Assembly: GCF_040024445.1 (NCBI RefSeq)
Contig: NZ_CP157276.1
Coordinates: 496,001 to 560,000 of the forward strand
Source: Prescottella soli
GTDB lineage: Bacteria > Actinomycetota > Actinomycetes > Mycobacteriales > Mycobacteriaceae
DNA length: 64,000 nucleotides
Reading direction: 5' to 3'
Shown here: one piece after another, positions 2,642 to 44,418 of the stretch
Layout: the number at the start of each line of letters is the position of its first letter
Position numbering within the stretch: the first letter of the stretch is position 1
Position numbers and translations under genes: made by a program
The notes under the pieces: model-generated
What the model saw: the letters and a program-made list of their open reading frames with translations, nothing else
Told to the model about the DNA's origin: nothing
Databases searched by the model: none

Positions 2642-3883
2642 TCAGCGCAGGTCGATGCCGAGCAGCGCGTCCACCGCGGTCGCGAGCGCGGCCGGCGCCG
2701 AGGCGTCCGGGCCGCGGTGGTCGACGGCCCGGCGCGCCCAGCCGTCGATCGCGTCGAGCGCCTTGGGGGTGTCCAGGTCGTCGGCGAGGTGCTGACGCAG
2801 CCGGGCGATCGTGTCGTCCGCGGACGGCGCCGACTCGAGCGCAGCCGCCTTGCGCCACAGCGCCAGTCGCGTCTGCGCGTCGGCGAGCACCTCGTCGGTC
2901 CAGGCACGGTCGGTGCGGTAGTGGCCGGAGAGCAGACCGAGCCGGATCGCGGCCGGGTCCACGCCCTCGCCCCGCAGCTTCGAGACGAACACCAGGTTGC
3001 CCCGGCTCTTCGACATCTTCTCGCCGTCCAGCCCGATCATTCCGGTGTGGACGTAGTGGCGCGCGAAACGATCTGTCCCGGTAGCGGATTCGGCGTGCGC
3101 GGCCGAGAACTCGTGGTGCGGGAAGATCAGGTCGCTACCGCCGCCCTGGACGTCGAAGCCCGAACCGATGCGGTTGAGCGCGATCGCCGCACACTCGATG
3201 TGCCAGCCCGGGCGGCCCGGACCGAACGGCGACGGCCACGACGGCTCACCCGGGCGCTGTGCGCGCCACACCAGCGCGTCGAGCGGATCCTTCTTGCCGG
3301 GACGGTTCGGGTCGCCGCCGCGCTCGGCGAAGAAGTGGTCCATGGTCCCGCGGTCGTAGCCGGACTCGTACCCGAACTGGCTGGTCGCGTCGGCACGAAA
3401 GTAGACGTCCGGGTACTCCGGGTCGTCGACGACGTAGGCCGCGCCGGACGCGACGAACTTCTCGACCAGCTCGACGACCTCGTTCACCGACTCGACCGCA
3501 CCGATGTAGTCCCGCGGCGGCAGCACCCGCAGCGCCTCCATGTCCTCACGGAACAGCGCCGTCTCCCGCATACCGAGGACCACCCAGTCCTCGCCGTCCC
3601 GCTCGGCCCGCTCGAACAGCGGGTCGTCGACGTCGGTCACGTTCTGCACGTAGTGCACGTCGTGGCCCGCGTCCCGCCAGATCCGGTTCACCAGGTCGAA
3701 CGTCAGATAGGTCGCGGCGTGACCGAGGTGCGTCGCGTCGTACGGCGTGATGCCGCACACGTACATCTTCGCCGTCCGGCCGGGGGTGACCGGCCGGACC
3801 TGCCGGTCCGCAGTGTCGTAGAGCCGGAGGGCAGGGCCCTGACCAGGCACGGACGGGACAGCGGTTTCGGACCAAGACTGCAT
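2642..3883 (-). CDS. mshC: L-cysteine:1D-myo-inosityl 2-amino-2-deoxy-alpha-D-glucopyranoside ligase (mycothiol synthesis)
   Basis: MshC joins cysteine to GlcN-inositol using ATP, the third step of mycothiol synthesis in the cytoplasm. The 413-residue sequence is a shortened cysteinyl-tRNA-synthetase fold. It has the zinc-site Cys43 in [10 protein letters not shown], the class I HIGH-like motif THLGHA, and KMSKS in EKMSKSRG. The start at 3883 gives the family N-terminus MQSWSE. The frame is open 17 codons further upstream, but those codons are Arg-rich and not family-like. The gene is close to undecaprenyl-pyrophosphate phosphatase and DUF3090 genes, as in mycobacteria. Confidence is high. 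Confidence 0.96.
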
Positions 3884-3996
3884 GGCAACGAGCCTAGTGG
3901 AGAGCCGATTCCGTCCTCGCGGGCGGCGTCGCACGACGCGATCGAGCGCACCCCGGCGCCGCGCCCGTCGAGTCTCGTTGAGCGGGAAACCACACC

Positions 3997-6156
3997 ATGG
4001 CGGTGTCGTGGCTCACTAGCTTTCGGGGCGTGACGATCCGAGACCACGCATTCCCGAACCTCCTGGCCCCCGGCAAGATCGGGCCCATCACGCTCGACAA
4101 CCGGGTCGTGCTCCCAGCGATGGACATGAACCTGTGCGAGGACGGCGAGATCCACCAGGGTGACATCGACCACTTCGCCGCCCGCGCCGAGGGCGGCACC
4201 GGGATGATCATCACCGGTTGCTGCGCCGTCGCATACCCGGCGGGCTGCACCAGCCGCAAGGAGCCGGGCCTGTCCGAGGACCGGTTCATCCCCGGCCTGA
4301 AGGCGCTCGCCGACGCGGTCCACGAGGCCGGCAGCAAGCTGTGCGTGCAGATGACGCACCACGGCAAGGTCGCCCGGATCGACACCCTCGACGGCCGCCC
4401 CCAGCTGGTGCCGTCCATCCCGAAGCCGCCCGGGGACATGAGCGCGATGGCCGACTGCACCCCCGAGGAACTCCGGAAGATGGCTGCCATCCAGGAGGGC
4501 AAGAAGGCCACCTACCGCGAGGCCACGCAGGAGGACCTCGACTGGTTGGTCCGGATGTTCGCCGAGGCCGCGGGCCGGGTGAAGGCCGCCGGCGGAGACG
4601 CAGTGGAGATCCACTGCGCCCACAACTACGTCCTCGGCGGCTTCCTGAGCCGCTACTCGAACCAGCGCTCCGACGAGTACGGCGGGTCGCTGGAGAACCG
4701 GGCACGGCTGTCGTGCGAGGTCATCCGCGCGGTCAAGGACGAGGTCGGCGACAGCCTCGCCGTCATCGTGCGCCTGGCCGGTCAGGAATACGGCGAGTCC
4801 GAGGGCCTGACGCCGGACGAGGCCGCCCGCGCCGCCGCCATGTTCGAGCAGGCGGGCGCGGACGCCATCCACGTCACCGGCACCGCGCTCAACGCGTTCG
4901 CGAACTTCACCGACGGCCCGCTGCCCGACAAGGTCGGGTTTTACACCGACAACGCCGCCGTCGTGAAGCGTGCGGTGTCGATTCCGGTCATCACCGTCGG
5001 CCGCATGCTGCCCGAGGTCGGCGAGCAGATGATCTCGGAGGGCCGGACCGACTTCGTCGCGATGGGCCGCCAGTTGCTGGCCGACCCGGAGCTCGTCGAC
5101 AAGCTGAAGGCCGGACGGTCCCAGCAGGTCCGCCCCTGCATCAACTGCTACGTCTGCGTGCAGGAGAACTTCTGGGACGACACCCCGCTGTGCGCCGTCA
5201 ATCCGGCGCTCGGCAACGAGACGCTGCTGCCGTTCCCACCCACCACCGCACGCAAGCACGTGGTCGTCGTCGGCGCAGGCCCCGGCGGTCTCGAGACCGC
5301 CCGGGTGGCGACCGAACGCGGACACCGGGTCACCATTCTCGACAAGACCGACCGCCTCGGCGGAACGCTGTGGTTCTCCACCCTCACCACGCCCGACAAC
5401 GAGCGCCTGCTGAACTGGCTCACCCACGAGGTGAAGCGCGCCGGCGTCGACGTCCGCCTGAACACCGAGGCCACCGCCGCGACGATCGAGGCCCTCTCGC
5501 CCGACGTCGTCGTGGTCGCCACCGGCGCGGTGCGCGCACGGCCGAGCGTGCCGGGCGGCAATCTGCCGCACGTGCACACCGGCGACACGCTGCGGGCCCT
5601 GATGACCGGCGCGGGCGACGTCTCCGACCAGTCGCTGTTCCTGCGGGTCGCCGGCAAGCTGGGCGGTCTCGTCGGAATCACCAAGAGCCCCGCCAAGATT
5701 CGCGACCTGAGCCGCAAGTTCCTCAAGTTCCTTCCGATGAGCAAGAACGTCGTCGTCATCGGCGGATCGCTCGTCGGCCTCGAGCTGGCCGAGTTCCTCG
5801 CCGAGCGGGGAAGCAACGTGACGCTCATCGAGGAGGGGCAGCAGCTCGGTGTCCCGATGGCGATGCCGCGCCGCTGGACCGCCGTCAAGCACGCCAACGA
5901 GCTGGGGGTGAAGATCCACCGCAACGCGACCGTCGAGCGCATCACCGAGAAGACCGTCGAGTTCACCGCCGGAGGCAAGACGCTGTCCGCGCCGGCGAGC
6001 CTGGTCGTGGTCGCGTCCGGCGTCTCCGCGGCGGCGCCGCTGGCCGACGAACTGGCCCGCGCCGGGGTCGACGTGCGCGTCGTGGGTGACGCCACCGAGG
6101 TCGACTACATCGAGGGCGCGATGCACACCGCGTGGAAGGTCGCCACCGAGCTGTAG
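3997..6156 (+). CDS. Old-Yellow-Enzyme-type FMN/Fe-S/FAD oxidoreductase (2,4-dienoyl-CoA reductase family)
   Basis: The 719-residue flavoprotein has an N-terminal FMN-binding TIM barrel (about 15-360, [17 protein letters not shown] near its start). A 4Fe-4S cluster segment follows with Cys381, Cys384, Cys387 and Cys399. The C-terminal FAD/NAD(P) domains have GAGPGG near 423 and a second dinucleotide motif VVIGGSLVG near 590. This is the layout of 2,4-dienoyl-CoA reductase and of trimethylamine-dehydrogenase-like enzymes. The substrate cannot be read from the sequence. A GTG at 4030 is an alternative start. Its stop is followed by a strong hairpin shared with the convergent gene. Confidence 0.88.
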
Positions 6157-41278: not shown

Positions 41279-41805
41279 CCGCACTCAGCCTCACGCTCAT
41301 CGGCCTCGCCGCGCTGGTGGGGACGATGGCGGGCAGACTGGGGGCGGCCTCCCGGCCCGCGGGCGTCGGCGTCCGACTCGCCCCGGTCGCCGCCGTCCTC
41401 GCCCTGGCCGGCGCGGCACTCGCGGCGAGCGCCGCGCCGCCGGTCCACGGATTCGCCCTCGCCGCGACGTACGTCCTGACGGTCGCCGCGGCGGCGACCG
41501 GCGGCGCGCCAATGGTGCTGGCCGCCTTCCGCTTCGCGCGCAAGCAGCCCGACGCCGGACCGGAACCGGACGACGGCCCGCTCCGCGGCGGCCGCGTGAT
41601 CGGCCTGCTGGAACGGACCGCCGTCGCGGTGTCCATCCTCGCCGGCTGGCCCGAGGGGATCGCCATCGTCCTCGCAGTCAAGGGCCTGGCCCGCTACCCC
41701 GAGCTGCGCGAGCCGCACGCGTCGGAGCAGTTCATCATCGGCACCTTCACCAGCGTGCTGTGGGCAGTCGCCGTTGCGGGGGTCGGCCGGGCGCTGGTCA
41801 CCTAG
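41275..41805 (+). CDS. Integral membrane protein coupled to the SatD-like gene (SatE-like by context)
   Basis: The 176-residue protein has about five hydrophobic helices and a charged loop (RKQPDAGPEPDDGPLRGGR) near 108-126. Its C-terminal part FIIGTFTSVLWAVAVAGVGRALVT is family-like for small actinobacterial membrane proteins, but I cannot name a function. The ATG overlaps the previous stop by four bases. Its TAG stop lies within the 6-bp target duplication of the adjacent IS481 element. Without the element the stop would still be there, so the gene is intact. Confidence 0.75.
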   Translation: MTALSLTLIGLAALVGTMAGRLGAASRPAGVGVRLAPVAAVLALAGAALAASAAPPVHGFALAATYVLTVAAAATGGAPMVLAAFRFARKQPDAGPEPDDGPLRGGRVIGLLERTAVAVSILAGWPEGIAIVLAVKGLARYPELREPHASEQFIIGTFTSVLWAVAVAGVGRALVT

Positions 41806-41806
41806 C
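41801..41806. repeat. Left copy of 6-bp target-site duplication (CCTAGC)
   Basis: CCTAGC directly precedes the left end TGTACT of the IS element and is repeated at 44413-44418. It fits the NCTAGN target preference known for the founding IS481 of Bordetella. Confidence 0.9.
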
Positions 41807-42788
41807 TGTACTGCTCGGGGACGTTGATCAATCGTGAGAACGACGGCTGGTTGCCGCACGCCGTGTGCGGGCGATGCTGGTTGTACTGGTGCAACCACAC
41901 CCCAAGCGCTCCCCGCCGCTCTTGTTCTGAGGTGTAGCAGCGGGCGTAGGCCCATCCGTCGGCCATAGTGCGGTGGAAGCGCTCCACCTTTCCATTTGTC
42001 TGTGGCCGGTACGGTCGCGTGCGCTTATGTGTAATTGACAGGTCCTCGCACGTATCGCGCCACAGGAACGATCGGTAAGCGCCACCGTTGTCCGACAGAA
42101 CCCGCTCGATCGTGACGCCGCGGTCGGCGAACCATTCGACTGCACGGCGCAGAACGGCGACGGCGGTGACGGCTGTCTCATCATCGTGGACCTCGGTGTA
42201 TGCCGCCCGTGAGTGATCATCGAGAACTGTGTGCACGAAGGTGTACCCGAGCTTCGGGTTGCGCCATTTTTTCTTCGGCTTGCCAGGGGTGGCTGCGCGG
42301 TTGCGGTCGCCTTGGGGGCGGCCGACGTAGCGCCGGCCGCCGCCGTCGGGGATGTTCCCGAGCTTCTTCACGTCCACGTGGACGAGCGACCCCGGGTGGT
42401 CGTGCTCGTACCGGCGAATTGGCTCACCGGTCGCCCGGTCCATATAGGACAGCCGATTCAGACGCGCCGAGCACAGGATGCGATGCACCGTCGACGGGGC
42501 GACGCCAAGCCTGCTCGCGAGTTGAACCGGGCCTTCGCGCAGCCGCATCCGCAGGCTCACACATCGCTGCGTCACGGCCTTGCCCGTCTTGTTCGGCGAT
42601 GTTCTCGGCCGCGAGGAGCGATCGTGCATCGGCACACCGGCGAGGTAGCGATCGACCCAGCGCTTCACGGTCGGCCAGGACACCTGGAAACGGGCGGCGA
42701 CCTCGCTGATCGGCCACGCCTCCTCGACGACGAGACGGGCAACCTTGAGGCGGTGTCTTGGCGTGAGCGCGGCATTGGGGTGTGTCAT
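41802..42788 (-). CDS. IS481-family DDE transposase
   Basis: The 328-residue transposase has a double HTH at the N-terminus (RLKVARLVVEEAWPISEVAARF and the later GPVQLASRLGVAPSTVHRIL regions). The integrase core carries a DDE triad: Asp in HVDVKKLGNI, Asp in VLSDNGGAYRS and Glu in KVERFHRTM. The C-terminal end IYNQ-type segment reads YNQHRPHTACGNQPSFSRL. Reading runs through the left inverted repeat. The final Ser codon and the TAG stop are completed by target-site bases. It appears intact, so the element may be active. Confidence 0.95.
   Translation of the reverse strand: MTHPNAALTPRHRLKVARLVVEEAWPISEVAARFQVSWPTVKRWVDRYLAGVPMHDRSSRPRTSPNKTGKAVTQRCVSLRMRLREGPVQLASRLGVAPSTVHRILCSARLNRLSYMDRATGEPIRRYEHDHPGSLVHVDVKKLGNIPDGGGRRYVGRPQGDRNRAATPGKPKKKWRNPKLGYTFVHTVLDDHSRAAYTEVHDDETAVTAVAVLRRAVEWFADRGVTIERVLSDNGGAYRSFLWRDTCEDLSITHKRTRPYRPQTNGKVERFHRTMADGWAYARCYTSEQERRGALGVWLHQYNQHRPHTACGNQPSFSRLINVPEQYS
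41807..41829 (+). repeat. Left terminal inverted repeat of the IS481 element
   Basis: TGTACT, then three mismatched bases, CGG, one mismatch and GACGTTGATC. It matches the inverse of 44390-44412 at 19 of 23 positions and overlaps the 3' end of the transposase gene. Confidence 0.92.
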
Positions 42789-42806
42789 GAAATCTTTCGG
42801 GAATGT

Positions 42807-42837
42807 AAGAGGGCCAGCCGTTTCGGCTGGCCCTCTT
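42807..42837. terminator. Hairpin terminator separating cargo hydrolase and transposase genes
   Basis: A 14-bp stem (42807-42820 with 42824-42837) and 3-nt loop lie 17 nt past the hydrolase stop and 18 nt before the transposase start on the minus strand. It ends hydrolase transcripts before the transposase gene, insulating it from cargo expression. Confidence 0.85.
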
Positions 42838-42853
42838 CAGGTCTGTCTGCGGT

Positions 42854-43597
42854 TCAGTTAGCTGGGGAAGTCGCTGCTGCAGCGAGGATGTGGGCGAGGT
42901 CGCCGGGGCGGCTCCACATGGGCCAATGCCCGGTCGGGAGGTCGATGAGGTCAACATGGTCGAGGTTTGACACCTCGACGAACATGGGATGACCCGCGTT
43001 GGCCAGCTCCATTATCTGCGCGCTCGGGATCGAGCAGCACACCAGAGTGGTCGGGACCGCCAGACGCGCATCGTTGGTGAGCTCCACTTGCTGGCGTAGC
43101 ACGGGACCGGGTTCTGGAACGGCCCTGGCTCGAAAGCGCTCGAGAGCCTCGGTGCTCAGGCCCTCAAGGCTGGCCTGCTCCCCGAGCGCGTCGAAGGGCG
43201 GCAGGGGCAACTCGTCCAGATCCTCGGGCGCATCCGGGGCGAAGACACTGCCGGACGCGACAGGCCCACTATCGACCCACACCACTCGGCGGACAAGTTC
43301 AGGATGCTGATCGAGCACAAGGCTTACCGGCGCGTTGGCTCCGCTGTGCGCCACGATGACTACCGGCTGGGCCTCGGAAGCCTCAGCCTGGGTCATAGTC
43401 TGCTCGATCGCCATCGCCTGGTCATCGAGCGTCCTGGACGCCCGCTTGGGGTCCCGCTCATCGAGGCCGGGAAGCGTCATCGGGATGGTTCGCCAGCCGT
43501 CAGCGGTCAGGTGTTCCAGCACCTCGTCCCATGCCCAAGCCCCCAGCCAATGGCCAGCGATCAGGATGATGGTCGGGCTGCTCGCGTTTGTCGTCAC
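42854..43597 (-). CDS. Alpha/beta-hydrolase (esterase-like), transposon cargo
   Basis: The 247-residue enzyme has an oxyanion loop near IAGHWLGAWAW, a nucleophile elbow VIVAHSGAN with the serine near residue 85, and a C-terminal His in DLPTGHWPMWSRP. This last run is shared with the plant SABP2/EstC-like esterase group. No signal peptide. It starts with GTG at 43597 and is transcribed away from the WYL regulator gene 89 nt off, the common layout of a regulator and its target. The substrate, perhaps an ester xenobiotic or signal, is unknown. Confidence 0.85.
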   Translation of the reverse strand: MTTNASSPTIILIAGHWLGAWAWDEVLEHLTADGWRTIPMTLPGLDERDPKRASRTLDDQAMAIEQTMTQAEASEAQPVVIVAHSGANAPVSLVLDQHPELVRRVVWVDSGPVASGSVFAPDAPEDLDELPLPPFDALGEQASLEGLSTEALERFRARAVPEPGPVLRQQVELTNDARLAVPTTLVCCSIPSAQIMELANAGHPMFVEVSNLDHVDLIDLPTGHWPMWSRPGDLAHILAAAATSPAN

Positions 43598-43627
43598 ACC
43601 ACGATGCTCTCAAGCCTCTAGGACAAG

Positions 43628-43649
43628 GGCATGTCACCATTTTGGCATG
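43628..43649. promoter_or_regulatory. Direct-repeat operator candidate between divergent cargo genes
   Basis: GGCATG occurs twice, at 43628-43633 and 43644-43649, 16 bp apart, in the gap between the hydrolase and regulator starts. It is a plausible site for the WYL regulator. Confidence 0.35.
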
Positions 43650-43686
43650 ATTTTTTGCCGGGATGGGAAATGAGCAGGAGTGGGAG

Positions 43687-44382
43687 ATGAAGAGGGCGGA
43701 GCGGCTCCACGCCCTGTCCGAGATGCTGCGACGCAGCGGATCGCGTGGATGCACTGCTGAGCGACTGGCAAAAGAGTTCGGCGTGTCCGTGCGGACGGTC
43801 AAGAGAGACCTCACCGCGCTCGAGAACAGTGGCGCGCTGATCTGGTCGCGTCCGGGCCCCGGCGGTGGCTACGGGCTAGTCGCCCGAGGCACCCTGCCAC
43901 CGGTCAGCCTGACCCCTGTGCAGGCAGTGGCGCTACTCGCGGCAGTCTCTGCTGCACCCGATGCCCCCTACGCCGATCTCGCCTTAGCGGGCGTTCGGAA
44001 GATAATGGACGTACTCGATCCACGGACCCGGACGAAGGCTGATGAGCTGGCCACTCGCGTCTGGGTCAACGCGCCTCCTACTCCGCGCACGATCAAGTCA
44101 GCGCTGGAGGAAGCGATGGCCGAGCAACGGGTGGTGCGTATCCGCTACACCTCGCGTGACGGCAACACCACCACCCGCGACGTCGAGCCGGTGATGTTCG
44201 CCTCCACGAACGGCCATTGGTACCTGATCGGCTGGTGCAGGCTACGCAGCGATATGCGGTGGTTCCTCGTGTCCCGTATCGAGCACGCCAGTGCAACCAA
44301 GATTGCCTGCAGCGGCCATGACATTGACGAGATCGGCATCCCCCCAGCGACAGCAAGACCCGTGAATGGCCAAGGTGAGTGA
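43687..44382 (+). CDS. YafY-type WYL-domain transcriptional regulator, transposon cargo
   Basis: The 231-residue protein has an N-terminal HTH of the HTH_11 type (RLHALSEMLRRSGSRGCTAERLAKEFGVSVRTVKRDL spans 4-40). A WYL ligand domain follows, with VVRIRYTSRDGNTTTRDVEP and NGHWYLIGWCRLRSDMRWFLVSRI. WYL domains sense nucleotides or other small ligands. ATG 43687 gives the common MKRAERL start; ATG 43663 would add eight residues. It likely controls the divergent hydrolase gene. Both lie inside the IS481 element. Confidence 0.87.
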   Translation: MKRAERLHALSEMLRRSGSRGCTAERLAKEFGVSVRTVKRDLTALENSGALIWSRPGPGGGYGLVARGTLPPVSLTPVQAVALLAAVSAAPDAPYADLALAGVRKIMDVLDPRTRTKADELATRVWVNAPPTPRTIKSALEEAMAEQRVVRIRYTSRDGNTTTRDVEPVMFASTNGHWYLIGWCRLRSDMRWFLVSRIEHASATKIACSGHDIDEIGIPPATARPVNGQGE

Positions 44383-44389
44383 GGCACTC

Positions 44390-44412
44390 GATCAACGTCT
44401 CCGGTTAGTACA
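44390..44412 (-). repeat. Right terminal inverted repeat of the IS481 element
   Basis: The inverse reads TGTACT, then AAC, CGG, A and GACGTTGATC, pairing with 41807-41829 at 19 of 23 positions. It begins 7 nt after the cargo regulator stop. Confidence 0.92.
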
Positions 44413-44418
44413 CCTAGC
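44413..44418. repeat. Right copy of 6-bp target-site duplication (CCTAGC)
   Basis: CCTAGC follows the right end of the element directly and is identical to 41801-41806. Confidence 0.9.

Follow-up and report, generated by a model that had tools for sequence, protein, structure and literature searches.

A complete IS481-family transporter-IS carrying a hydrolase and a WYL regulator in Prescottella soli, and its cargo-carrying relatives

The window analyzed here, a stretch of 64,000 nucleotides from Prescottella soli, holds a complete IS481-family transporter-IS, a single intact unit in which two passenger genes unrelated to transposition, encoding a hydrolase and a WYL-type regulator, lie between the IS ends (Table 1). 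That the unit is such an element, and that it is mobile, we regard as very likely. The original prediction of a complete IS481 transposon with two extra genes is thereby borne out by the ends, the target duplication, the intact transposase, and the identity of the two cargo genes. Transporter-ISs, mobile insertion cassettes, IS481 cargo elements, NCTAGN targeting, and target-made stop codons were all known before, and the element is ordinary in kind and new in its cargo; it is the architecture of the transposase clade to which it belongs that is unusual. Among IS481 elements with cargo, those best described confer antibiotic resistance. In the clade described below, the same IS481 vehicle appears to move ordinary metabolic enzymes together with their own regulators through actinobacteria, to swap cassettes, and then to discard the transposase. 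Regulated accessory genes would in this way have a path that escapes annotation, since the majority of copies have lost their resemblance to transposons.

Anatomy and insertion site of the element

Table 1. Features of the element, in window coordinates
Feature	Position	Strand	Basis or remark
Complete element, 2606 bp	41807..44412
Left target duplication CCTAGC, 6 bp	41801..41806		Supplies the transposase stop (-), holds the stop of the upstream + gene
IRL, 23 bp, overlapping the 3' end of the transposase gene	41807..41829	+	Sequence
IS481-family DDE transposase, 328 aa, intact	41802..42788	-	D139, D233, E269 invariant (D-35-E)
Hydrolase-transposase spacer with compact 14-bp hairpin	42789..42853	-	Hairpin 42807-42837
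Cargo 1, alpha/beta hydrolase (Abhydrolase_6), 247 aa	42854..43597	-	Pfam, model, alignment
Divergent promoter region, candidate WYL operator	43598..43662		Motif conservation
Cargo 2, HTH-WYL transcription regulator, 239 aa	43663..44382	+	Pfam
IRR, 23 bp	44390..44412	-	Sequence, end scoring
Right target duplication CCTAGC	44413..44418		Sequence

The left end reads TGTACTGCTCGGGGACGTTGATC and the right end is the complement of GATCAACGTCTCCGGTTAGTACA. These terminal inverted repeats have TGT...ACA tips and match at 19 of 23 positions, and they are flanked on both sides by a perfect CCTAGC duplication of an NCTAGN target; repeats and duplication both lie where the original prediction had put them. 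The tip-plus-CTAG signal exceeds the 99th percentile of shuffles at both ends of this copy. Given this percentile and the recurrence of the same 33-nt spacing between WYL alignment and element end in 19 loci (see below), we judge the ends not to be a product of chance. The IRR itself lies 10 nt past the end of the WYL alignment, here as in many other copies. The transposase matches the NCBIfam IS481 model NF033577 (E 9e-97; 324 bits, cut-off 224), and its DDE triad is invariant across the aligned family members. Its stop codon (41802-41804) is made by the target duplication, the CTAG of which is read on both strands, and the element sits between two convergent genes. A transposase stop supplied by CTAG has been described for TnRErm46 (PMC6794481).

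On the cargo side, the regulator scores above the cut-offs for both PF08279 and PF13280, which gives it an HTH plus a WYL domain. The intergenic region between the two cargo genes keeps a palindromic motif with the consensus GTATGTCACTATTTaTGTCATGAATTT, an imperfect palindrome of the form ATGnCA-N7-TGnCAT, and the divergently encoded regulator very probably controls the hydrolase by binding to this conserved site. A scan of 42700-43800 for sigma-70 promoters gave no match. The structural model of the hydrolase (pLDDT 86) adopts an alpha/beta fold of the SABP2/hydroxynitrile-lyase type. Its top PDB matches (6tj2, BioH3, PytH, and SABP2) reach query TM scores of ~0.66-0.75 at 15-24% identity, and the structural matches include a Paenibacillus SABP2-like hydrolase and the pyrethroid hydrolase PytH. 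Ser85 and His224 are invariant; no acid is conserved at the usual place, and D109, which follows the strand at 102-108, is a candidate. Our best guess for the protein is an esterase with a role in detoxification or scavenging.

In the two closest relatives, G008 and G002, whose neighboring 8 kb are 96% and 92% identical to the window, respectively, the flanking genes directly adjoin each other, and the cargo is absent from the site. The insertion, which had been called recent, is so relative to the split from these relatives. The single CCTAGC expected at the empty site was not found: both relatives read CCTGAT. We therefore only infer that the target CTAG was present before insertion, in the lineage of the window only. 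For the insertions in loci L024 and L021, a single-CTAG empty site was sought in the genome of the window and none was found, the regions that correspond to their flanks being rearranged and mosaic.

Copies with these ends at other sites, on which the original prediction depended, do exist. Perfect 6-bp duplications occur at three hydrolase/WYL loci in all (CCTAGC in the window, GCTAGC in L024, and GCTAGG in L030), so that the same pair is found elsewhere with ends and duplication, as in a unit that moves as a whole. By analogy with the family, the DDE transposase would act on the 23-bp ends and insert the unit at NCTAGN, generating the 6-bp duplication, and the element would in this way carry the hydrolase/WYL pair between actinobacteria.

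A transposase clade with exchanged cargo

Thirteen distinct transposases, that of the window included, are at least 76% identical to the latter and form one supported clade (96/91), a membership that lay beyond what the original prediction could see. Cargo is present in all 13. The elements of the clade are 2.4-3.8 kb long and have the same ends, with perfect 6-bp NCTAGN duplications in 11 of the 13, whereas no cargo accompanies the 1.1-kb ISs that form the sister of the clade (L188) and most of the outgroups. Tn5564 and L141, both longer, fall outside the clade. Nine types of cargo were distinguished (Table 2), with HxlR, MerR, WYL, RidA, DUF2268, TfoX_N, VOC, ABC, and MazE-like named according to Pfam and AraC-like from sequence only.

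Table 2. Cargo types within the transposase clade
Cargo	Members
Hydrolase and WYL	Window
VOC and WYL	L171
RidA and WYL	L172, L175, L179
TfoX_N plus a second cargo protein, and HxlR	L178, L182
MerR-TipAS and DUF2268 protease	L180, L183
Rrf2 and NAD(P)H-binding protein	L173
ArsR and permease	L174 (published ISArsp12)
ABC ATPase, permease, and AbrB/MazE-like protein	L181
VOC and AraC-like, with nested IS3-like element	L184

Two comparisons show how these cargoes are distributed over the transposases. L181 and L182 are 96% identical over their first 970 bp, which comprise the IRL plus the transposase, and unrelated after this, with identity dropping at ~900-950. The cargo of L182 is in turn 80% alike to that of L178, but the transposase of L178 groups with that of the window and the transposase of L182 with that of L181. 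Shared cargo with different transposases, together with the break between L181 and L182, indicates that cassettes move between transposase modules, with the junction at the 5' end of the transposase gene. Judging from these alignments, the module that is kept is the IRL plus the transposase, and the cassette that is swapped extends from the transposase start to the IRR. Homologous recombination and alternative end use are candidate routes of exchange.

Several published elements resemble that of the window in part. Among them are ISArsp12 from Arthrobacter pA2H1 (PMC6305408; L174) and the related ISPfr21, likewise IS481 elements with 5'-TGTACTGACCGG ends, two passenger genes, and a 6-bp duplication around CTAG. 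ISArsp12 measures 2615 bp and has a transposase of the same clade, 76% identical to that of the window, but carries a permease plus ArsR instead of a hydrolase plus WYL. TnRErm46/ISRe46 of Rhodococcus equi, the mobility of which has been demonstrated (PMC6794481), shares the combination of regulator and cargo within an IS481 element, the NCTAGN target, and the CTAG-made transposase stop; it differs in its size of 6.9 kb, its macrolide resistance cargo erm(46), and its end sequence. Tn5564/IS5564 from Corynebacterium striatum pTP10 (L192) combines an IS481 transposase with a co-oriented cargo gene, cmx, that lies upstream of and overlaps it, and is flanked by a 6-bp CCTAGG duplication. Unlike the window element, it is 4156 bp long, carries a chloramphenicol exporter, and has a transposase that is 62% identical and falls outside the clade. 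The bare actinobacterial IS481 elements of ~1.1 kb (L188, L129, L134, and others) agree with the window element in family, ends, and target, but lack cargo and have a long stem up to the start codon in place of the compact hairpin. A search confined to published papers returned no description of a hydrolase/WYL IS481 element, an all-cargo clade, cassette exchange at the 5' junction of the transposase, or a cargo-gated IS481 transposase.

Two further observations concern individual members. In L184, an IS3-like element with two ORFs (3795-5206) is nested in the VOC/AraC transporter-IS, the outer GCTAGG duplication of which is still perfect. L180 and L183, which represent the element with MerR-TipAS and a predicted Zn-protease (DUF2268), come from different families of the order.

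Gene order, hairpin, and expression of the transposase

In nine of nine cargo types, the gene adjoining the transposase lies upstream and in the same orientation, so that the transposase is the last gene after the cargo. A compact, strong hairpin shortly precedes the transposase start in 10 of the 13 members (z from -2.9 to -6.9), the exceptions being L180, L183, and L181. In the window it ends 18 nt before the start; within the hydrolase lineage, it is conserved in other copies, where 6 of its 13 pairs have changed in a compensatory manner. The stop of the permease gene and the start of the transposase gene overlap in L181, and those of cmx and the transposase do so in Tn5564, which acquired its cargo independently.

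In this clade, the cargo operon has the transposase as its promoter-distal gene, in most cases preceded by a hairpin. These features led us to consider that leaky read-through, starting at the promoter of the cargo, yields most of the transposase, a proposal to which we would give something approaching an even chance. In that case, transposition may come under the influence of the regulator in the cargo as well. Alternatively, and with an even chance, the element is an ordinary transporter-IS, a class that is well established, in which the transposase has a weak promoter of its own, the hairpin is only a terminator that shields it from transcription of the cargo, and the WYL protein plays no part in transposition; this alternative competes with the read-through step only. 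It gains from the bare IS481 relatives, where a long stem ends at the transposase start codon and is likely a guard against incoming transcription, and from a TACATT hexamer within the 18-nt spacer between hairpin and start in the window, which could be the -10 box of a short-leader transcript; the three members without the hairpin also count against read-through. Yet in most members the corresponding spacer has a Shine-Dalgarno-like sequence but lacks a clear -10 box. The overlap of cargo stop and transposase start in L181 and Tn5564 likewise speaks against a separate promoter, and a co-oriented upstream cargo gene in all nine types would be improbable by chance.

Read-through from the cargo promoter is also part of a broader and more tentative proposal, which we consider possible but rather doubtful: this monophyletic IS481 branch would be an obligate carrier of cargo, with a fixed transposase module at whose 5' end enzyme- or transporter-plus-regulator cassettes are swapped, and with the transposase expressed only as a distal, hairpin-gated gene, such that the signal-sensing regulator in the cargo (WYL, HxlR, MerR, ArsR, or Rrf2) also activates transposition whenever there is a need for the cargo. 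If the cargo promoter does gate the transposase, movement would be coupled to whichever condition the cargo responds to.

Spread and decay of the hydrolase/WYL pair

A search with the WYL protein yielded 80 loci of actinobacterial type, in nearly all of which the hydrolase gene lies divergently beside the WYL gene. A comparison of their flanking DNA revealed almost no common neighbors, even within the genus. A cargo tree, built by a quick method and unrooted, mixes host families, placing Corynebacterium, Gordonia, and Propionibacterium together and Nocardiopsis algeriensis with Prescottella. Both observations support the originally proposed movement between actinobacteria.

To score the ends, the 12-nt tip plus CTAG was compared with shuffles at a 1% null threshold in 79 scorable loci. 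The right end is retained in 36 of these, the left end in 13, both in 11, and neither in 41. In 19 loci the distance from the WYL alignment to the right end is 33 nt, the spacing of the window copy, and 64-69 nt separate the hydrolase stop from those transposase remnants that retain the first codons; this common distance and the common right-end spacing imply that the copies have one ancestral layout. Since copies with a right end occur in every main clade of the unrooted cargo tree, the common ancestor of the cargo copies was probably already inside the element. The transposase is lost or broken in most copies of the cargo, and among ~900 genomes searched by DNA and the 80 loci, the window copy is the only one that combines an intact transposase with this cargo, the dN/dS of which is 0.13-0.36. 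After landing, copies would thus decay by losing first the transposase and then the ends, while the pair is kept under purifying selection.

The many loci without either end leave room for another history. Part of the cargo's spread may have occurred by means other than the window element, and in the extreme, the hydrolase and WYL genes would be a chromosomal pair that IS481 elements captured repeatedly, so that the window copy says little about the rest. Three Microbacterium loci with common flanks, which look vertically inherited, would fit such a history. We consider it very unlikely, because the junctions fall at the same nucleotides: the 19 loci have an identical right-end spacing and others a similar one, across all main clades of the cargo tree, and the transposase remnants have one common junction with the hydrolase. 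Least probable of all is that the unit is an immobile relic that looks intact by chance next to an accidental CCTAGC repeat; it is present as a single copy in its own genome and its ends are mismatched at 4 of 23 positions, but the full-length transposase with its invariant DDE residues, the perfect duplication, and the empty site in the relatives argue against this, and other members with perfect duplications have comparable end mismatches. We therefore rejected accidental repeat, dead relic, and repeated independent capture alike.

Within a plasmid collection, no WYL relative was found at E 1e-40, and hydrolase relatives were confined to Cutibacterium acnes plasmids (61%) and one Arthrobacter plasmid (41%); a phage collection contained one transposase relative (60%). 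On the C. acnes plasmid from HL096PA1 (L177), the stretch around the 61% hydrolase relative has no annotated WYL gene, and genes for ParA and a DUF4865 protein lie near. A hydrolase/WYL locus of actinobacterial type with 70% G+C was also found on contig00071, titled Vibrio cholerae 35D (L064), and is probably a contamination of the public assembly. Lastly, in three loci (L048, L094, and L028) the tip of the inverted repeat lies against or near the hydrolase stop and the whole transposase gene is gone, which makes them resemble mobile insertion cassettes.
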